DNA of 64,000 bases from Leeuwenhoekiella palythoae (lineage in GTDB: Bacteria > Bacteroidota > Bacteroidia > Flavobacteriales > Flavobacteriaceae), in NCBI RefSeq assembly GCF_900130045.1, contig NZ_FQXT01000001.1, positions 725,014 to 789,013 of the forward strand, read 5' to 3'. The translations under genes were made by a program, and so were the position numbers. Position 1 is the first letter of the stretch. Each line of letters begins with the position of its first letter. Below are positions 49,143-56,796 of this stretch, piece after piece. The notes beneath the pieces were generated by a model. The model saw nothing but the letters and a program-made list of their open reading frames with translations, was not told the DNA's origin and did not search any database.

Positions 49143-49254
49143 CTTAACACCCGTATCACTGGGTGTTTCTTACTTTTTCATAGGCATTTTTTTATGGCTA
49201 ATTCAAATGTTTATGGCTGAACTATTCAAGCCCGTAGTATTAAACGCATGTTCT

Positions 49255-49412
49255 CCCTCGGTTCAGAATAGGCGCAGGAAGCTCCGAGATTCAGGAGCGG
49301 TAGCGACGCGGAGCTGACAAGGCGGTTTTCGCCCTTAAGGCGAAAAATTCCTAAGCGAGGGTGTCCTTTCTTTTGTTACTTTTCTTTGGACAATCAAAGA
49401 AAAGTAAGGAAC
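49255..49412 (+). repeat. Structured repeat family A, copy 1 (possible noncoding RNA)
   Basis: Four nested or successive helices are visible. Closing helix CCCTCG (49255-49260) with CGAGGG (49356-49361). Helix 2 AGCTCCG (49280-49286) with CGGAGCT (49309-49315). Helix 3 TTTTCGCC (49326-49333) with GGCGAAAA (49339-49346). Helix 4 TTACTTTTCTTTG (49376-49388) with CAAAGAAAAGTAA (49395-49407). The conserved single strands TTCAGAATAG and CCTAAG flank the closing helix. Other copies keep the pairing with different bases. Strand is assigned by convention only. Confidence 0.75.
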
Positions 49413-49831
49413 AACCTCTTATTGCTTTCACGTTTCTAGATACGTCATAAACACGATTAAAATTTGCTAATGCACCAGTGCTAATACAAAAACTGTATAA
49501 GCCCGTGCTGCATGCACTGCACGCAACCCCAACCCAACTACCGAATACTCTTAGGGAATGACCGGTAACCCACGGGTGCTTTAGCAGGATGATGTGCTCC
49601 CGTTAGCACGTATGTCATATGCTATTTAGTTTTAAATTATTAAACAATCTTACTTTTCAATTTGATGGGCTTAACGTCCTGATTTTATAACCTGAAGGGT
49701 ATAGTTCTCTTTTTCTTCAGTATAGCAGGAAGTTCCCATAACCCTCATCCTCAACCCTTCTCCCAAGGAAGAGGGAGTTTGATTCTAACTGCCTTTAGCT
49801 TTAAGATCAAGAAATACTATTCTTTAGCCCT
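49413..49831. other. Intergenic region with a fragment of the structured repeat
   Basis: No gene is seen. The phrase TTTTTCTTCAGTATAGC at 49710-49727 matches the 5' end of the family B copy at 56210 and is cut off after about 28 bp. At 49742-49780 a CCTCATCC...TCTTCC-type stretch resembles the CTCCCTTC hairpins of the 51.6-53 kb tandem units. Confidence 0.5.
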
Positions 49832-49991
49832 CCCTCGGTTCAGAATAGTCGTAGGAAGCTCCGAGATTCAGGAGCGATAGCGACGCGGAGCTGACCAGGC
49901 GGTTTTCGCCCCTAAGGCGAAAAATTCCTAAGCGAGGGGCTCTTTTCTTTTGGTTCGTTTTCTTTGGAGAAGCAAAGAAAATGAACGGAAC
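49832..49991 (+). repeat. Structured repeat family A, copy 2
   Basis: Same architecture as copy 1. Closing helix CCCTCG (49832-49837) with CGAGGG (49933-49938). Helix 2 AGCTCCG (49857-49863) with CGGAGCT (49886-49892). Helix 3 again TTTTCGCC/GGCGAAAA. Helix 4 here is GTTCGTTTTCTTTG (49953-49966) with CAAAGAAAATGAAC (49973-49986), whereas copy 1 has TTAC/GTAA at the same place: both sides changed together. Confidence 0.75.
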
Positions 49992-50573
49992 ATGCTATTG
50001 AACCATTAACGCTATTCTTTTACCTTAAAACAAAAGAAACAACCAACTGTTTACAAAGTTCAGCGCTCTCAAATTTTATAATACGTTTTTGTATCCTACT
50101 TTTAAATCCTTTTAAACATCAAGCCCTTAATACTTGCTTACCTTTGCATTAACTTTTTAGAATGTTTAGTAATCTCGGCAGCTTCTTTGAAGCTCCAACA
50201 CTTTTGTCGCTGTTCAGGATTATTAACATCAGGCATAGTATTGTAGGGCGTCCATTAGGCACCTATGTCATACTGTTTGGAATTGCGGTGCTAAAGCACC
50301 TGATTTAACAATACGCTACAAGGAGCGGTGACCACGATGGTCCAATCTTTAGGGGGAAAGTAAATGAATATAAAAAGCACTAAGGGGTCGATACTACTAG
50401 GTTCCGGAATCAAGTAGTATTGGCTTTGCTTAACAAGATACTAGTCTTCTTCTACAGCTGTAAGAAGCGGCTCAGTGCATTAATTATGAAGTAAATATAT
50501 AATAAATCTAATTAACAACAAATAGTAATTAAAATATATTTTTTGTTGTTATGTAGATTGTTCTATTTGATCT
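49992..50573. other. Intergenic region before the XRE gene
   Basis: No gene is seen in this 580-bp stretch. It contains a GGTGCTAAAGCACC palindrome at 50287-50300. The last 100 bp are very AT-rich with a TTTTTTGTTGTTATG stretch and probably contain the promoter of the next gene. Confidence 0.5.
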
Positions 50574-51056
50574 ATGTCAAGATATAAAGACGAACTTAAT
50601 TTGGCTAAGCTGGGAGCCAACCTGACCAAAAGGCGGGAAGGCTTAAGATTATCAGTGGAAGATGTTTCTGAAATGACTGGTTTTTCTGCGCAAACCATTC
50701 GCAATATCGAAGCCGGTGAAGAAAGTTCGTTGTCTTATGTGATTGCTATTTGTCAAGCATTAGAGTTACATCCTACTAAAGCATTTGATTTTTCAATTCA
50801 ATTGAAACCTCGTTTTAAATTATCTGCAGTACGCGCTGAAAAAACCCGACTTACGCAGCGTATTGATGGGTTTGTAGCTAGCGACTATTTTAAGAAAGGC
50901 CGCACTGCAAAAGATGTTGTGACCGAGCTAAACGAAGTATATCATATTAAAACGACCACCTCAGCCGTCTCGGTGATCCTTAAACGCAAAGTAGATGAGC
51001 AACGCTTAAAAATCACGCAAGATGGGAAACAGCGGATCTATAAAAAGAATTCATGA
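50574..51056 (+). CDS. XRE-family helix-turn-helix regulator with extended C-terminus
   Basis: Residues about 10-70 form a Cro/CI-type helix-turn-helix (LGANLTKRREGLRLSVEDVS, TGFSAQTIRNIEAGEES, VIAICQALEL). The following 80 residues are basic and helical with a second possible DNA-binding segment (FKKGRTAKDVVTELNEVYH, TTTSAVSVILKRKVDEQRLK) and end in RIYKKNS. No membrane or enzymatic domain is present. It stands alone among structured repeats and low-complexity spacers; whether it regulates the cassette or the EPS genes nearby is unknown. Confidence 0.8.
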   Translation: MSRYKDELNLAKLGANLTKRREGLRLSVEDVSEMTGFSAQTIRNIEAGEESSLSYVIAICQALELHPTKAFDFSIQLKPRFKLSAVRAEKTRLTQRIDGFVASDYFKKGRTAKDVVTELNEVYHIKTTTSAVSVILKRKVDEQRLKITQDGKQRIYKKNS

Positions 51057-51319
51057 CGTTTCACGAGTCCAAGATAACTACATGCTTGGAACTTCCCTAC
51101 TTTCTTTTTTTACCTTTTCAAAAAATAACAATAAAGAAACAAGCAATGCCAAACAGAAAACAACGAACAGTGTACAAAAAATAACGAACAAAACTTAATA
51201 AACAAGGAGCAACAAACAGGCAACCAAAAAACAACGATGCTAGTCCATCAGTTCCTGCGCTGCCTGTCCCAAGACATGTAAGAATTATATCGCCTACTCT
51301 TCTTACAACAGCTTCACAA

Positions 51320-51514
51320 CTAGTCTAAATACCCTAATACCTCTTCGACCTGCAATCCACAATATGCAGCAAACTCATATACGGTAACAAATTGATGTGG
51401 CTCCTTTTTATGATAAACTTTAATGTCAGCCAAAAGCTGCCGCCCATAGCGCTCACTTTTTCCGGTGATACACTGTACATCTTTAGGAAATATACACAGG
51501 CGTTTGCTTTTCAT
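51320..51514 (-). CDS. Conserved small flavobacterial protein (64 residues)
   Basis: A short reverse-strand frame encodes MKSKRLCIFPKDVQ, then ITGKSERYGRQLLADIKVYHKKEPHQFVTVYEFAAYC and GLQVEEVLGYLD. The pattern KDVQxITGKSERYGRxLL resembles a small hypothetical protein that I recall as recurrent in Flavobacteriia, with a helix-turn-helix-like composition (helices around 9-31 and 43-60). The function is unknown. The 263 bp before it on the left (51057-51319) are A-rich, with repeated AACAACGAACA-like words and a degenerate GCGCTGCCTGTCCC hairpin at 51257. Confidence 0.6.
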   Translation of the reverse strand: MKSKRLCIFPKDVQCITGKSERYGRQLLADIKVYHKKEPHQFVTVYEFAAYCGLQVEEVLGYLD

Positions 51515-51985
51515 AATCGATTCAATAGATACGCTAGAACAAACCTCAACAGAAAAAACGACAATATTTCGGTATGCCTTTCGGAGTTCCGATAAAATTT
51601 AACAGTAAAACAAAGAATCTGAGACTTCAATAAGACTCATTTTTAATTTGCAACCTCGATTCTTGACATCCGTAAAAACATCCCTCCAAACCTCCCTTCT
51701 AAGGGAGGCTTTCCTATACAGCTCCCTTCTCTTGGGGGAGGTGGTCTGGGGTTGAGGGCAGAACTCATGTCAGGTTCGCGCGCTGCCTGTCCCAATGCAT
51801 ATGGGGAATTGCATCGCGTATCTTTTATTCTAAAATAAACCCAAAATAATAGTATCGAGAATCCAGGTTAACAATAAACTCCCTAAATTCATAAACTTCT
51901 CGATACACTTGAATCCCTGCTACCGCAGGTTTTCAATCACTCGAAGTGACATTACCTATACCCGAAGGATAGTACAAAATATGAT

Positions 51986-52140
51986 CCCTCGGTTCAGAAT
52001 AGACGCAGGGCGTTCCGAAGGACAGGAGCGATAGCGACGCGGAACGAACAAGACGGTTTTCGCCAAAGCGAAAAATTCCTAAGCGAGGGGCTCTTTTCTT
52101 TTGTTACTTTTCTTTGGAGAAGCAAAGAAAAGTAAGGAAC
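51986..52140 (+). repeat. Structured repeat family A, copy 3
   Basis: Closing helix CCCTCG (51986-51991) with CGAGGG (52084-52089). Helix 2 is CGTTCCG (52011-52017) with CGGAACG (52040-52046), both sides changed against AGCTCCG/CGGAGCT of copies 1 and 2. Helix 3 TTTTCGC (52057-52063) with GCGAAAA (52068-52074). Helix 4 TTACTTTTCTTTG (52104-52116) with CAAAGAAAAGTAA (52123-52135). It is followed 27 bp later by a copy of the cassette tail. Confidence 0.75.
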
Positions 52141-52166
52141 ATAGAAAGAAGCATAGTAGAAACAAC

Positions 52167-52245
52167 AAACCCTCCTCCCAGAACGAATCCCGAAAGAAGG
52201 GTTTAAACATCAAGAAATCCTACAAATACGATTCCTAGTTAGGGT
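52167..52245 (-). repeat. Copy of the DUF5675 cassette 3' tail, first
   Basis: A 79-bp stretch from AAACCCTCC to AGTTAGGGT is nearly identical to 53941-54019, which contains the terminator and last four codons of the 68-residue membrane protein gene. Here no gene remains beside it. It is a likely remnant of a duplicated or recombined cassette end. Confidence 0.7.
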
Positions 52246-52779
52246 CTGGTCTTAAATAGGACTCATTTTTTTATTTGCAACCTTAATTCTTGAAATCCGT
52301 AAAACATCCCTCCAAACCTCCCTTCTAAGGGAGGCTTTCCTATACACCCCACTTCTTCTGGGAGGAAGGGCTAAGGTTGAGGGCAGAACTCGTACCAGGT
52401 TCGTGCGCGATTGCATCGCGTACCTTTTATTCTAAAATAATCCCAAAATAATAGTATAGAGTAGCCTGATTAACCCTAAACTCTCTTACTTCAAAGACTT
52501 CTCGATATAATTGAATTCCTGCTCCGCAGGTTTTCAATCACTCGAAGTGACAGGCGTTTACGAAATCCTAGGGATTTGACCCCTTCAAAACCTCCTATTT
52601 CAACAGAAGGCGTTCCTTTGAGAAAGACAGACTCCCTTCCTTTGAAGGAAGGGCTGGGGATGGATGTCAACCCAAACGCTCAACACATAACGCTAAAATT
52701 GCCGACTGAGACTGCCAACTAATTCCGAATTCATCAGAACCCGGAACTTTGAACATTGACTCTTGAACCTATAAACAAA

Positions 52780-52858
52780 AAACCCTCCTCCCGGAACGAA
52801 TTCCGAAAGAAGGGTTTAAACATCAAGAAATTCTACGAATACGATTCCTAGTTAGGGT
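52780..52858 (-). repeat. Copy of the DUF5675 cassette 3' tail, second
   Basis: This is the same 79-bp stretch as at 52167-52245 and 53941-54019, with a few substitutions, 613 bp after the first copy. No coding remnant beyond the last few codons is recognisable next to it. Confidence 0.7.
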
Positions 52859-53200
52859 CTGGCCTAAATAGGACTCATTTTTAATTTGTAACCTTTATTC
52901 TTGACATCCGTAAAAACATCCCTCCAAACCTCCCTTCTATGGGAGGCCTTCCTATGCAACTTCCTTCTCTTGTGGGAGGAAGGGCTAAGGTTGAGGGCAG
53001 AACTCGTACCAGGTTCGCGCGCGATTGCATCGCGTACCTTATATTCTTAAATAAACCCAAAATAATAGTATCGAGAAGCCTGGTTAATAATGAACTCCTA
53101 ACTTCATAGACTTCTCGATATAATTGAATCCCAGCTAAGGCTGGTCTTCATACACTCGAAGTGACATTACCTATACCCGAAGGATAGTACAAAATATGAT

Positions 53201-53262
53201 CCCTCGGTTCAGAATAGACGCAGGGCGTTCCGAAGGACAGGAGCGATAGCGACGCGGAACAT
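53201..53262 (+). repeat. Structured repeat family A, copy 4 (truncated)
   Basis: The 5' half is nearly identical to copy 3 (CCCTCGGTTCAGAATAGACG; helix 2 CGTTCCG at 53226-53232 with CGGAAC at 53255-53260). The match stops at 53261; the rest of the element is missing, and unrelated sequence leads into a family B copy 40 bp later. Confidence 0.7.
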
Positions 53263-53302
53263 ACAATCTTTTTAAGTAATACCTATGCTGATAGTTTAGC
53301 TT

Positions 53303-53448
53303 CCGTTTGGTCAGTATAGCAACAGTTGTCCGTTAAAAATTCATGAAGCCTTAGAAGTAATTTAGGGAGGCGCTTGCAGTTTTTGCAATAGCAAAAAAAC
53401 ACCTATCCAAAAGGTGTCCTTTCTTTTTTGCATCGCCCAAAAAAGAAA
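53303..53448 (+). repeat. Structured repeat family B, copy 1
   Basis: Closing helix CCGTTTGG (53303-53310) with CCAAAAGG (53407-53414), one mismatch. The conserved word TCAGTATAGC follows the 5' arm and CCTAT precedes the 3' arm, as in family A (TTCAGAATAG, CCTAAG). Helix 3 is TTTTTGC (53380-53386) with GCAAAAA (53391-53397). Helix 4 is TTTCTTTTTTG (53420-53430) with CAAAAAAGAAA (53438-53448). The 3' flank to about 53610 is GC-rich with inverted words (CTCGGGCGGCGC, CCGCCTGCG) and no gene. Confidence 0.7.
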
Positions 53449-53634
53449 CAAAAAAGTCTAGGCTTACATAAGCTTCTCTAAATTTTATGCTCGCTCCACT
53501 GCATGCGCTTAACTCGGGCGGCGCACCGTCCTCAAACAGAACCGCCTGCGAACGTTCCGCTCCCTGTAAATTTAACGAGAACCTCTTGATAGGCCGTTTC
53601 CTAAATTCAAACTAAAAATAGTATTCCTTAGTTT

Positions 53635-53796
53635 CCTTTTGGTCAGTATAGCAACAGTTGTCCGTTAAAAATTCATGAAGCCTTGGAAGGAATTTAGGGC
53701 AACTGGTGCGGTTTTCGCCCCCAAGGCGAAAAATACCTATCCAAAAGGCGTCGTTTCTTTTGGTTCGTTTTCTTTAGACGAGTAAAGAAAATGAAC
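53635..53796 (+). repeat. Structured repeat family B, copy 2 (best preserved)
   Basis: Closing helix CCTTTTGG (53635-53642) with CCAAAAGG (53741-53748), perfect. Helix 2 CAGTTGTCC (53655-53663) with GGGCAACTG (53697-53705). Helix 3 TTTTCGCC (53712-53719) with GGCGAAAA (53725-53732). Helix 4 GTTCGTTTTCTTTA (53763-53776) with TAAAGAAAATGAAC (53783-53796). The helix 4 top pair is A-T here and G-C in family A copy 2. The 3' flank to about 53900 recurs after copy 4, and leads into the cassette terminator. Confidence 0.75.
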
Positions 53797-53936
53797 AAAA
53801 CACTATTGGTAGTTAAAATCACTCAAACCGACGTTAGGAGGTTCACGAGCTACCGTAAAATAGAAATCACGCGAGTAAAGAAAAGTAAGGAACATGGAAA
53901 GAAGCATATCAGAAATAACATATGCCATACAGAAAA

Positions 53937-53978
53937 CAAAAAACCCTCCTCCCGGAACGAATCCCGAAAGAAGGGTTT
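53937..53978 (-). terminator. Terminator of the DUF5675 cassette
   Basis: Read on the reverse strand, AAACCC (53978-53973) and GGGTTT (53946-53941) form the base of a hairpin with inner CGGG/CCCG pairing, followed by a T run (A-rich 53932-53941 on the forward strand). It lies 30 bp after the stop of the 68-residue protein gene. Two further copies of this terminator lie at 52167 and 52780. Confidence 0.75.
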
Positions 53979-54008
53979 AAACATCAAGAAATCCTACGAA
54001 TACGATTC

Positions 54009-54215
54009 CTAGTTAGGGTTACTTCGATTTAAAAACCACGTTTTCAAACGTTGAAACAGCCATTTTAAAAACAAAGAAACCACAAAGCTCACACAAGCCC
54101 CTACTCCTGCAAGGACCACTGCCTCCAGCAGCGTATCCCGTTGAATACTGGGCACGGCTGCGGCCACCGTGCCTCCCAACGTGCCTAGTTTTAAAGAAGC
54201 GGTACTAGTGTTCAT
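54009..54215 (-). CDS. Small membrane protein, possibly holin-like
   Basis: The 68-residue protein has a Thr/Ala-rich start (MNTSTASLKLGTLGGTVAAAV), a strong membrane helix (LEAVVLAGVGACVSFVVSLF) and a basic end (KWLFQRLKTWFLNRSNPN). Small size, one or two helices and a charged tail are holin-like, but this is only a resemblance. It overlaps the previous gene by 11 bp and is the last of four overlapping or abutting reverse genes. Its last four codons and the terminator are copied twice upstream in the tandem units. Confidence 0.6.
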   Translation of the reverse strand: MNTSTASLKLGTLGGTVAAAVPSIQRDTLLEAVVLAGVGACVSFVVSLFLKWLFQRLKTWFLNRSNPN

Positions 54216-54444
54216 CTACGTGTTGCTCAGGCTCAGGCAGCTTATCGGCCACCACCGCCTGGCTCACCGCAGTAGCCACGCTACCGGCAACCACCGCATA
54301 CCCGGCAAGACTCAATACAAAGGCCGGGAGGGTCACAGGTGCAGCAAGTAAAGCCGCACCACCACTGGCCAGTCCAATGCCCACGCTACGAAGTATGCGG
54401 AAAAACCGTGGTGTGGGTTTTTGATAACGATCTAAGATATTCAT
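54205..54444 (-). CDS. Small membrane protein of the DUF5675 cassette
   Basis: About 79 residues from ATG at 54444 (an ATG at 54450 is also possible). After a polar start (MNILDRYQKPTPRFFRILRS) come two hydrophobic stretches (VGIGLASGGAALLAAPVTLP, FVLSLAGYAVVAGSVATAV) and an acidic, His-containing tail (DKLPEPEQHVDEH). The family is unknown. Its 5' end overlaps the DUF5675 gene by about 59 bp in another frame, and its 3' end overlaps the next gene by 11 bp, so the four genes are translated as one unit. Two-helix small proteins beside a DUF5675 protein suggest a phage-derived membrane module. Confidence 0.6.
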   Translation of the reverse strand: MNILDRYQKPTPRFFRILRSVGIGLASGGAALLAAPVTLPAFVLSLAGYAVVAGSVATAVSQAVVADKLPEPEQHVDEH

Positions 54445-54844
54445 GAGCATTATAGGTTATCGTTAAATATACAGCCTCCTGGTGTTCCTGCGCCTCACGT
54501 TGCAGTACCAGTAATCGGGCTAGCGCCCTACGCGAATGCAATCCGCGACCTATGCCACTAAGTTCAGAAACCGGTGCGATACAGCCCTGCAATGCTCCCT
54601 GTGCATCATTTGCCGGATGTATTAAGATCCAACTGCGCTTGGGAACATCAACAAGGAGCAGGTGATTCCCAAATTTGCGGGATACTCGAAATTGCACCTC
54701 ATAACGCCCCTCGGGAATACAAGAAACAGATCTGCGATTCTCACGCCAGGGAAGCTCGATCGTAAAGCACAAAAACCTGCCGTTTACAAAAAGTACGCCG
54801 TTGGTACCTGAACGATAGTAACTCCGTTGTAAAACCCACTCCAT
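54386..54844 (-). CDS. DUF5675 family protein
   Basis: ATG at 54844 lies one base after the stop of the upstream gene, giving 152 residues. The sequence fits DUF5675: VLFVNGRFLCFTIELPWREN, SCIPEGRYEVQFRVS, HLLLVDVPKRSWILIHPANDAQGALQGCIAP and AVYLTITYN. The IHPAN and GCI motifs with conserved His and Cys recall LD-transpeptidase-like folds, but no proven enzymatic role is known to me. DUF5675 proteins occur in prophages and in bacterial chromosomes. Base composition is visibly GC-richer than the surroundings. The second half is Arg-rich (GIGRGLHSRRALARLLVLQ). Confidence 0.8.
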   Translation of the reverse strand: MEWVLQRSYYRSGTNGVLFVNGRFLCFTIELPWRENRRSVSCIPEGRYEVQFRVSRKFGNHLLLVDVPKRSWILIHPANDAQGALQGCIAPVSELSGIGRGLHSRRALARLLVLQREAQEHQEAVYLTITYNAHEYLRSLSKTHTTVFPHTS

Positions 54845-54845
54845 C

Positions 54846-55604
54846 TTACGCCGGTTGCGCGACCTGTACCACAGCCATCGCATTAAAGGCCCCATTTTGT
54901 AGGGAATACATCGTTCCGTTCACCTCTTGGTAAAACTCAATACTAAGGGCGTGTACCACCTGGAGTGTGCTGCCGGCTGTGAGGCTTACCTCCAGTGTGG
55001 TAGCAGCCACCTCGGTATTCTGATACGGCAAAATTCCGGTAGTCACACTTTTAAAGAGCGAAGTCTGCTCTTCAAAATCCAGCTCACTGGCCCCACAACT
55101 CAGTTTATAATGCGTAGCTCCCGCGGGTGCCGCGATCTGCACGTGTGGAGTGTAGGCTTCCAGCTCCAGCCCCACCACGCCGGTAGCACGATCATACCCC
55201 ACACTATAGGGAGCAGACAGGGTGGTGCTCAACGGACTGTTTGCATTAAAATCAAAGCCATTGAGGAGCCCTAAATCCCCCTGGGTCAAATTACGAGCGC
55301 CACGGGCAGAAAGCGTATCCGTTTTAATGATTGCCAGCAAAACGGTGGTCAAGCGACTTACCACCTTAGCATCTTTAGCCTGCTGCAGGAGCAGCTGCAT
55401 CGAGCTACGCAATAATTTACCGCCTTTGCCGGCGCGTCCAAATTCCGCCCCGTTTTCTCGGGTACGTTGAAAAGCAGGATCGGTAGCGATACGCTTTTTA
55501 TCGATCCCTCCTTTAAAACGAGCCATGTGCCCGTCTCCACTTTTGTAAAAAGCAATATCTCCGATAGTGCCTTTCAACTTGATAATTCCAGCTTGTTTAG
55601 CCAT
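54846..55604 (-). CDS. Conserved flavobacterial protein of unknown function, first gene of the cassette
   Basis: The 252-residue protein begins MAKQAGIIKLKGTIGDIAFY and continues KSGDGHMARFKGGIDKKRI, then DPAFQRTRENGAEFGRAGKGGKLLRSSM, a pattern I recall as recurring in Bacteroidota next to DUF5675 genes. The N-terminal half is basic and helical with no signal peptide. The C-terminal half (VGLELEAYTPHVQIAAPAGATHYKL onward) is strand-rich with many Thr and Val, possibly a beta-sandwich like phage structural proteins. Function is unknown. It is transcribed first in the four-gene unit and is GC-rich. Confidence 0.7.
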   Translation of the reverse strand: MAKQAGIIKLKGTIGDIAFYKSGDGHMARFKGGIDKKRIATDPAFQRTRENGAEFGRAGKGGKLLRSSMQLLLQQAKDAKVVSRLTTVLLAIIKTDTLSARGARNLTQGDLGLLNGFDFNANSPLSTTLSAPYSVGYDRATGVVGLELEAYTPHVQIAAPAGATHYKLSCGASELDFEEQTSLFKSVTTGILPYQNTEVAATTLEVSLTAGSTLQVVHALSIEFYQEVNGTMYSLQNGAFNAMAVVQVAQPA

Positions 55605-55677
55605 AGTAAAAAGGTTTTAGATTAAGCCACAAAGAACTTGGGCAATCAACCTGAATACTAACGGCAGTGTACATTCC

Positions 55678-55713
55678 TGCCGATTTTGCCGATACTGCCG
55701 ATGCTGCCGGTAA
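55678..55713. repeat. Four 9-bp tandem repeats upstream of the cassette
   Basis: TGCCGATTT, TGCCGATAC, TGCCGATGC and TGCCGGTAA follow one another 75-110 bp outside the start of the first cassette gene. The 9-bp period could be a multimeric protein-binding site or a simple slipped repeat. Confidence 0.6.
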
Positions 55714-56017
55714 AAAAGCCTTACCTATAGCCGCCTTACGAGATAAGGTACTTCTAAGTGATTGGTTTTCCTATGCAGCAATTCTGTTTATCTCATTAGT
55801 ATAAAAATGAAAATACGGAATCAGAAATACAAAATGCATTCGCGCAATGAACTCTCCTTTGCAGTAATTCCGATCCATACCTTAGGTTTTATTTAAGTGT
55901 ATTGGGAGAGAAGCTAATTCTAGGTAAGGAAATAAGTACCATGTGTGATCTCTCCTAACGTCGAGATGACTGATTAGCTTTGATATGAGTAGAGTTTATA
56001 CTCAAGGGCTTTAGTTC

Positions 56018-56135
56018 CCTTTTGGTCAGTATAGCAAGGGTATCCGTTAAAAATTTCTGAAGCCTTAGAAGAAATTTAAGGGAGATGCTTGCCGTAATCA
56101 CCCTCAAAGCGAAAAATACTTATGCAAGCATTTTT
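56018..56135 (+). repeat. Structured repeat family B, copy 3 (degenerate 3' end)
   Basis: It starts CCTTTTGGTCAGTATAGC (56018-56035). Helix 2 is GCAAG (56034-56038) with CTTGC (near 56088-56092), different bases from copies 2 and 4 but still paired. The inner AAATTTC/GAAATTT pair encloses the conserved loop TGAAGCCTTA. Helix 3 and the 3' closing arm are eroded. Confidence 0.6.
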
Positions 56136-56210
56136 TACCGATTACTACAGATTGAAATAGTAGGGCATTTCCTAAAATCAATACTACGAATGCAATTCTT
56201 TAGCCATCTT

Positions 56211-56316
56211 TTTCTTCAGTATAGCGAGAAGGCTCCGTTAAAAATTTTTGAAGCCTTGGAGAAAATTTAGGAGCCTTTTTGCGATTTTGCCTGATAAGGC
56301 AAAAATACCTAAGAAA
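56211..56316 (+). repeat. Structured repeat family B, copy 4
   Basis: Closing helix TTTCTT (56211-56216) with AAGAAA (56311-56316). Helix 2 GGCTCC (56231-56236) with GGAGCC (56270-56275), inner AAATTTT (56242-56248) with AAAATTT (56262-56268) around TGAAGCCTTGG. Helix 3 TTTTGCC (56285-56291) with GGCAAAA (56298-56304). Every helix uses other bases than copy 2, while the linkers TCAGTATAGC and ATACCT are the same. Confidence 0.7.
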
Positions 56317-56796
56317 TGTGCCTCTCTGGAAGACGATTCTTATTACGATTATTATAGGCACATTCAATCTGACCTATTCAAAAAATAGAAAATACAGATT
56401 AAAAAGTGTCTTTTCTTTTCTGCATCCGACGACCGCAGGGAGAGGAATGCACCTGTTGTGCTATATAATTTTGTTAGTCGAATTAGTACTAGTAAAGAAA
56501 ATGAATGAACACAATTAGTAGTAAAAATTCACCAATCAACGTCAGTAGATTCACAAGTTCCCAAAAAATAATAATAAAGAAAAGTAATACAACGGCATCC
56601 CCCACTCAAAGCCCAGGCAAAGGCCATGATAGAGTATGAAAACTGCTGCTAAAAAACGACCTTAAGAGGCATCATTTGGAAACCTTGCAAAATTTCAGAA
56701 CAATGCATTAGAAGTAGTAACTTAAAACAATGAACAACATACCGAGAATAAGGAATAACAAACACTAAATAGGAAATCAGCCACAACAAACCCTAA
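56317..56796. other. Intergenic region with an extended family B flank
   Basis: No gene is supported. From 56400 (AAAGTGTCTTTTCTTTTCTG) the sequence resembles the 3' hairpin side of family B, and 56480-56570 (AGTAAAGAAAATGAATG, GTAGTAAAAATTCAC, GATTCACAAG) matches the flank after copy 2. So copy 4 seems to be split by an insertion of about 80-150 bp. The last 100 bp contain AATAACAAACACTAAATAGG, also found at 58416-58445. Confidence 0.5.

Follow-up and report, generated by a model that had tools for sequence, protein, structure and literature searches.

We analyzed a stretch of 64,000 nucleotides (nt) from Leeuwenhoekiella palythoae (contig NZ_FQXT01000001.1, positions 725,014 to 789,013 of the forward strand; here called the window), in which a preliminary description made from the letters alone had picked out several copies of a structured element. 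With modest confidence, we read this element as a dispersed, noncoding, nonautonomous mobile repeat of ~165 nt, with a plus strand under selection for folding, most likely in the form of RNA. A closing helix (P1/P1b) encloses two hairpins, P2 and P3, and is followed by a linker and a tail hairpin, P4. Two core types share this one architecture: the T-type, TCAGTATAG, with an apical stem-loop around GAAGCCTTGG, and the A-type, TCAGAATAG, with the apical sequence CCGAAGGACAGGAGCGRTAGCGACGCGG. P1 occurs with several letter sets (CCCTCG/CGAGGG, CCTTTTGG/CCAAAAGG, and CTTTTTCT/AGAAAAAG; by eye, GCTGTAG/CTACAGC in Hanstruepera). P1b has the form G(N)AT/AT(N)C in both types, with N covarying; the variable letter of TCAG(N)ATAG pairs with that of AAT(N)CCTA as U-A in 54, A-U in 31, and C-G in 3 of 90 rows. 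P2 is a stem of variable letters with a conserved apical loop.

The order of the helices and the linker words TCAG(T/A)ATAG and CCTA proved, on reading, to be as first described. The closing helix and helices 2 and 3 also stand, and the fourth helix turned out to be part of a pseudoknot, likely with a triple helix, that had been missed. It had been claimed in addition that the fold, and not the sequence, is under selection; covariation upholds the first part of this claim, and the second part fails, since hardly any variation occurs in the apical loops and linker words of the aligned T-type sequences. The sequence itself is also constrained, beside the fold.

We have little doubt that the conserved fold is real. 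Among 23 T-type sequences (from Leeuwenhoekiella, four other named genera, and one metagenome-assembled genome [MAG]), 97.1% of cells were paired, versus 83.8% after shuffling, and covariation was 0.390 versus 0.145, with controls in which the structure was slid reaching at most 0.085. In a larger set of 90 sequences obtained by model search, 96.3% of 4341 pair cells held standard pairs, and the covariation score was 0.477, versus 0.140 for shuffled and at most 0.094 for slid controls. Because related copies inflate simple covariation counts, we wrote a tree-aware test in the style of R-scape (not R-scape itself), in which the substitutions on each branch of a FastTree tree are kept and placed on random columns to form the null, and pairs are scored by the G statistic with average-product correction. 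With 100 simulations as the null, the 90 sequences yielded 22 significant pairs, all 22 of them among the 54 proposed helix pairs and spread over all five helix groups counted, with none in the pseudoknot. A set of 87 of 150 aligned rows yielded 11, of which 10 were proposed pairs and the remaining one lay within one column of a proposed pair. The covariation that the preliminary description had proposed by inspection therefore rises above background. Mismatches in the helices were also informative: with 129 of 150 aligned rows retained, G-U outnumbered A-C by 201 to 45 over 53 pair columns (35 to 8 by column), placing the constraint on one strand rather than on a double-stranded palindrome. 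Single-sequence folding energy is weak evidence for the fold, with z ranging from +0.37 to -4.20 across seven copies and the opposite strand folding about equally well.

Copies in the window were located by direct reading, a repeat search, and a covariance model, which gave full-length matches to seven plus-strand copies within positions 49250 to 56331 (E values of 8.3e-11 to 4.8e-40). A truncated copy and a short fragment were added by reading, and neither was among the model matches; the earlier count of eight copies plus one fragment holds provided that the truncated copy is included. Tails are intact in four of the seven matched copies (49250, 49827, 51981, and 53630); the others are altered (53298), degenerate (56013), or displaced by an insert (56203). 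The features are as follows, all on the plus strand.

49250 to 49409, plus strand: A-type copy 1 with tail, pseudoknot TGTC/GACA (covariance model, E = 9.5e-21).
49708 to 49735 (about), plus strand: short 5' fragment of a T-type copy (reading and repeat search, families D15 and D20).
49827 to 49987, plus strand: A-type copy 2 with tail, pseudoknot core CTC/GAG (covariance model, E = 2.9e-22).
51981 to 52137, plus strand: A-type copy 3 with tail, pseudoknot core CTC/GAG (covariance model, E = 2.8e-18).
53200 to 53262, plus strand: truncated A-type copy, 5' half only, with other repeat DNA directly after it (reading and pattern match).
53298 to 53450, plus strand: T-type copy whose tail hairpin is common to another, minus-strand repeat (E = 2.6e-18; tail read by eye).
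53630 to 53797, plus strand: T-type reference copy, helices and tail all intact (E = 4.8e-40; folding z of -3.35).
53635 to 53642, plus strand: P1 5' strand of the reference copy, CCTTTTGG, with its partner CCAAAAGG at 53741 to 53748 (reading and helix alignment).
53749 to 53752, plus strand: pseudoknot 5' strand of the reference copy, CGTC, with its partner GACG at 53777 to 53780 (tail alignment).
53754 to 53761, plus strand: pyrimidine tract of loop 1 (L1), TTTCTTTT, the predicted third strand, parallel to AAAGAAAA at 53784 to 53791 (register 8 of 8).
53763 to 53796, plus strand: P4 tail hairpin, with its 5' arm at 53763 to 53776, a loop, and its 3' purine arm at 53783 to 53796 (folding and helix alignment).
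56013 to 56165, plus strand: T-type copy with a degenerate 3' part (covariance model, E = 8.3e-11).
56203 to 56331, plus strand: T-type core with a palindromic repeat inserted at the P1 3' strand and the tail motif again near 56402 (E = 3e-23).

Five weaker minus-strand matches to the model in the window (E values of 0.00084 to 0.039) are taken to be the tail palindrome.

The linker before P4 is predicted to pair with the P4 loop, which would make the tail an H-type pseudoknot, and permutation supports this pairing. Within Leeuwenhoekiella, 71 tails were recognized as intact among 121 copies, and a three-letter linker/P4-loop core (GTC/GAC or CTC/GAG) matches in 70 of these 71; some tails that bear inserts are mismatched (e.g., CTC with GAC in loci L122 and L136). 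The intact Leeuwenhoekiella tails could be a few inherited blocks. The pseudoknot is favored because other genera pair linker and loop with different letters, namely, CGCC/GGCG, TGCC/GGCA, TGCCC/GGGCA, GGGGC/GCCCT, TCTC/GAGA, TGAT/ATCA, CTTGAC/GTCAAG, and AAAGTGC/GCACTTT. Across 34 unique linker/loop pairs, the mean score was 4.28 versus 3.51 (standard deviation [SD], 0.11) when partners were permuted, and 0 of 2000 permutations were as good; this set retains rows with a misplaced P4, among them at least Altibacter and Haloflavibacter b and c. Loci L256 (genome G253) and L258 (genome G223), in two congeneric species, look by eye like orthologous copies that have stayed in place, and both preserve the helices and the pseudoknot while differing in letters.

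When an H-type knot has its parts in this order, the deep groove of stem 2 takes up loop 1, which runs parallel to the 3' strand of that stem. In the element, L1 is a pyrimidine tract and the 3' arm of P4 is a purine tract, and in most tails the two match letter by letter from the junction. L1 and the purine arm read TTTCTTTT with AAAGAAAA in Leeuwenhoekiella, TTTTCTTT with AAAAGAAA in Aureitalea, G048, MAG.028, and Altibacter, TTTTTTT with AAAAAAA in G335 and G073, and TTTTCTTTC with AAAAGAAAG in G656. The main test of this register used 55 of 59 tails, with four skipped, and comprised 45 unique tails. The Hoogsteen-compatible fraction in the parallel register was 0.769, versus 0.693 (SD, 0.015) on permutation, with 0 of 10,000 permutations as high; sliding the register by -2, -1, +1, or +2 gave 0.642, 0.727, 0.614, and 0.555, all below the in-register value. 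C stood opposite 14 of 47 G's versus 20 of 290 A's, an excess equaled by 6 of 10,000 permutations. An alternative version of the test, with 57 of 59 tails and 5000 permutations, gave 0.729 versus 0.660, a value that none of the permutations reached, and its C/G measure was equaled by 6 of them. Both versions misplace the pseudoknot in some rows, e.g., in two of three Leeuwenhoekiella rows, and the reference copy is one whose pseudoknot was put elsewhere by the scripts for the pseudoknot and triplex permutations. Because a triple helix of U·A-U and C+·G-C triples predicts both the L1/purine register and the excess of C opposite G, L1 likely lies in the P4 major groove as such a helix. The sequence register also has the layout of a class IV (pyrimidine) intrastrand triplex, in which one strand holds both a hairpin and a Hoogsteen tract running parallel to the hairpin's purine arm. 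The idea that L1 is a direct copy of a duplicated P4 arm was rejected, as it scored 5.94 versus 6.83 for the parallel register (33 of 59 tails, 29 unique).

A strict pattern found between 0 and 25 matches in each of 13 Leeuwenhoekiella genomes (0 in G007, G008, G009, and G012; 25 in G004), and its reversed control found 0 in all 13; as the shuffled and slid structure controls were also beaten, the element assumed in the preliminary description goes beyond chance. A looser pattern gave 20 matches in the element's own genome, G000, versus 1 control match. Scanning a collection of species genomes with a pattern returned 90 stretches, five of which were judged by eye to be chance matches without stems. 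Real copies, likewise judged by eye, were present in Leeuwenhoekiella, Haloflavibacter, Mesonia, Aureitalea, Dokdonia, Hanstruepera, and Altibacter, as well as in a Flavobacteriaceae MAG, a Bacteroidia MAG, and a MAG labeled Hyphomicrobiales. The copies on the Hyphomicrobiales-labeled contig (PAPH01000006.1), L190 of the T-type and L238 of the A-type, are typical Leeuwenhoekiella-like ones, and the contig is probably misbinned. Covariance model R1 matched 31 of 395 Flavobacteriales genomes at an E value of ≤0.001, 20 of them with a best E value of <1e-9, in 25 of 108 genera; by eye, several of the weakest matches look like tail palindromes alone. Model R2 matched 30 of 395 genomes of the phylum (26 of 171 genera), and its matches outside Flavobacteriales were weaker (best E = 1.1e-12). 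Up to seven candidates were scored per genome in both searches, and per-genome copy numbers are lower bounds. Copies reach further genera and families of Flavobacteriales beyond Leeuwenhoekiella.

When 14 R2 loci from outside Flavobacteriales, apart from one of the element's own family, were folded and read, most had a linker/loop match and a pyrimidine loop together with other 5' folds (tail likeness was not clear in L311 and L322), and thus the tail seems to be wider than the element. A tentative extension is that the triplex-pseudoknot tail marks a so far undescribed superfamily of mobile, structured RNAs that extends over the Bacteroidota and is recognized by a conserved 3' triple helix. 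Its members would possibly carry a common 3' module (pseudoknot, U/C-rich L1, and purine-armed hairpin) on different 5' folds, including the A- and T-types.

Mobility of the element is probable. Copy number varies between species and between orthologous islands. One orthologous site carries the element in G004 and G005 and lacks it in G002, where the matched flanks stand 58 bp apart instead of 323; these genomes are too diverged to give exact element ends. An orthologous site holds an A-type core in G000 and a T-type core in G011, with alike leader and downstream DNA. Copies keep to no fixed side of genes, and their orientation is not fixed. We rejected a cis-regulator of a neighboring gene, since orientation is variable and the neighboring open reading frames in other genera, compared by their first residues by eye and with no family search, form no recurring family. 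Carriage by phage or plasmid was rejected as well, as the strict pattern had 0 matches in viral contigs and phage and plasmid records held merely short tail-like matches (1 plasmid and 4 phage). The word TTTAG is enriched upstream in Leeuwenhoekiella (0.50, against control windows at 0.13), with a smaller excess elsewhere (0.23, against 0.12).

Among candidate enzymes, Y1_Tnp (PF01797) is present in 7 of 13 genomes and had no match in the copy-rich G002, G003, G006, and G011; RVT_1 is present in 9 of 27 genomes and had no match in the copy-rich G000, G003, G004, G005, and G011; and TnpB (Cas12f1-like_TNB) was found in 1 of 27 genomes searched, with IscB not looked for. A resident RAYT/IS200, RVT_1, or TnpB was therefore rejected as necessary, each being missing from copy-rich genomes. 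Genome G115 (4.1 Mb) has 19 RVT_1 matches, many with identical scores, which are probably an active retroelement family, and at least two element matches. Our proposal for spread and function is a guess, and a doubtful one. Copies would spread as units with machinery supplied in trans and would be read through from neighboring transcripts. The triplex pseudoknot might close and protect the RNA 3' end or serve as a handle for a copying or moving protein, for which the conserved apical loops may be recognition sites.

Several points weigh against the reading as a mobile repeat that folds as RNA. On sequence, a folded single DNA strand would explain the covariation, the G-T excess, and the triplex equally well. 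Covariance-model alignments lean toward the fold by construction. The pseudoknot pairs are not significant in the tree-aware tests (best E values of 13.9 with 87 sequences and 0.18 with 90), and column statistics alone are no proof of the pseudoknot. The L1/purine register is poor in several tails (e.g., 2 of 7 or 8 in G095, G649, and G614), partly through misplacement of the pseudoknot by the script. The empty site in G002 shows neither a clean target-site duplication nor an exact insertion boundary, and no mobilizing enzyme was found among Y1_Tnp, RVT_1, and TnpB, with no other transposase family searched. The Leeuwenhoekiella GC-skew bias described below slightly favors single-stranded DNA, and the apparent retention in place of orthologous copies in G253 and G223 hints that the element may serve the host.

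The main rival, which we consider unlikely, is that the fold acts as single-stranded DNA, as a mobile or recombination site recognized on the strand exposed in replication. IS200/IS605 ends and integron attC sites are cases for comparison. DNA likewise forms knots and pyrimidine triplexes, and this rival would also account for the presence/absence variation between relatives. The plus strand lies on the negative-GC-skew strand for 86 of the 123 copies with enough flank and, averaged per locus, for 45 of 66 Leeuwenhoekiella loci; however, copies of one island are not independent, and other genera have no bias (7 of 13 negative). The copy-rich genomes that lack Y1_Tnp also speak against it (tyrosine recombinases were not looked for), and the elaborate fold and conserved apical loops would seem to exceed the needs of known single-stranded DNA sites.

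Less probable still is an ordinary trans-acting small RNA or host-beneficial 3'-end stabilizer that is multicopy by chance and not mobile. Conservation across genera fits this explanation, as does the copy in G253 and G223 with its compensated helices. In gene-orientation counts that take in copies with genes on both sides (64 in Leeuwenhoekiella and 27 in other genera), 18 of 27 copies outside Leeuwenhoekiella share the strand of the upstream gene (P = 0.12), as do 19 of the 25 copies within 150 nt of that gene (P = 0.015), but in Leeuwenhoekiella only 29 of 64 copies do. Copy number, moreover, ranges from 0 to ~25 inside one genus, and no conserved promoter or terminator was found; a free-standing small-RNA gene was rejected for want of a conserved TAnnTTTG box or T-run. 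Quasipalindrome correction, in which repair copies one arm onto the other in REP-like repeats with no selection on the fold, draws on a region rich in nested palindromic repeats but is very improbable, as it predicts G-U and A-C mismatches in about equal numbers and leaves the pseudoknot and the parallel L1/purine register unexplained.

We compared the element, still read as a mobile repeat folding as RNA, with known classes. As the preliminary description had recognized no named RNA class, it is of note that Rfam gave 0 matches in the window at the gathering threshold, and a permissive search gave 8 chance-level matches (E up to 5), all below gathering. HEARO/IscB omega RNA and TnpB reRNA are structured RNAs of similar size, linked to mobile elements and with a pseudoknot; the element differs from them in having no Rfam match and in the single genome of 27 with a TnpB domain. 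The SAM-II and preQ1-II riboswitches and telomerase RNA have an H-type pseudoknot with L1 in the major groove of stem 2, but those are riboswitches or telomerase, whereas the element is multicopy and has no gene link. Our literature search found no description recognized as this element, which does not show its absence from the whole literature; in the portions consulted of a structured-RNA survey (PMC2864571), nothing was recognized as this element.

The closest published likenesses seen, in the parts of the sources consulted, are the bcr repeats for behavior and intrastrand triplex motifs (ITxF; PMC4666352) for the tail. The repeats bcr1 to bcr18 of the Bacillus cereus group are dispersed, noncoding, and 100 to 400 bp long, with few to >100 copies; bcr1 to bcr3 are termed MITE (miniature inverted-repeat transposable element)-like, bcr10 and bcr18 have conserved secondary structure, and 84 of 165 and 62 of 155 copies of these two, respectively, are transcribed (PMC6542083, PMC3446304). 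The element is also dispersed, present or absent between relatives, and endowed with a conserved RNA-like fold. The bcr repeats differ in belonging to the B. cereus group and in a mobility tied to a TTTAT motif, and the consulted parts of these papers describe no triplex pseudoknot tail (PMC6542083, PMC3446304). REP/RAYT palindromes of the GTAG and CGTC kinds are single hairpins of 20 to 40 bp, with 8 to 9 bp and an adjoining unpaired tag; in CGTC repeats, which occur in Bacteroidetes too and lack a dedicated transposase, the tag may also be TGTC or CCTC (PMC3733652, in the part consulted). CGTC repeats resemble the element in being dispersed, palindromic, and gene free and in sharing letters with its pseudoknot 5' strand (PMC3733652, same part). 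The element differs in its size of ~165 nt and multiple helices and in that its CGTC-like strand lies 10 to 11 nt from the hairpin and pairs with the hairpin loop. A REP mobilized by RAYT was thus rejected, since the element is not a single palindrome of 20 to 40 bp and Y1_Tnp is missing from copy-rich genomes; the preliminary description had left a REP group open, and neither the size, the helices, nor the Y1_Tnp distribution fits one.

One member of the Bacteroidota, Flexibacter litoralis, enters the comparison for the tail. It is named among A/T-triplex-rich genomes in the ITxF paper, which links these repeats to unstable loci and, in the part consulted, gives the 5'-to-3' layout of class IV as Hoogsteen, pyrimidine, and purine strands, the strand order shared by the element tail (PMC4666352). 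That part of the paper characterizes a G/C-rich purine-motif triplex as DNA, with no larger conserved fold around it, and its text lacks the words Bacteroidetes and pseudoknot (PMC4666352). The ITxF database may hold some element tails as isolated matches.

The copies in the window lie intermixed with other repeats in a gene-poor stretch, with a SusC/SusD-like cluster on one side and a polysaccharide locus (ManC-, Wzz-, and Wza-like genes) on the other. A second multihairpin repeat, with a TTTGAG...GAGTT apical motif, occupies 53400 to 53620 on the minus strand and is joined tail to tail with the 53298 copy, the two having one P4 palindrome in common. Its relatives at Leeuwenhoekiella loci have a tail with a U-rich loop and a linker/loop match of up to 8 bp (GCCTTGAT/ATCAAGGC), and it looks like a cousin with a similar tail. 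A palindromic insert (ATGTGCC...GGCACAT, ATCTG...CAGAT) is found at 56320 to 56400 and in L119, L120, L136, L142, and L146; as several T-type copies carry it at the identical position in the 3' strand of P1, repeats are nested in repeats. The P4 arm or loop (in L023, L076, L128, L149, L072, and others) is a recurrent site of the short repeats CTGCATCCGACGACCGCAGG..., TGCCCTGAGCGATAGCCGAAGGG, and AAATCGACGTTAGGAGATTCACGAGC..., the last of which stands in tandem downstream of P4 in L076. Further repeats unlike the element (families D3, D6, D7, and D14) form tandem-like units of ~610 bp at 51629 to 53100. At 54386 to 55604, on the minus strand, a DUF5675 gene (169 amino acids) overlaps a 252-amino-acid open reading frame without a Pfam match, isolated in the repeat island.

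Unnamed dispersed bacterial repeats are usually passed over. In this family, the fold is preserved through wholesale changes of letters across genera, as judged by covariation in each helix and by a covarying predicted base triple. The element would thereby offer a testable structured-RNA class for the Bacteroidota, possibly a novel way of moving, and, for structural work, a ready collection of candidate triplex pseudoknots.

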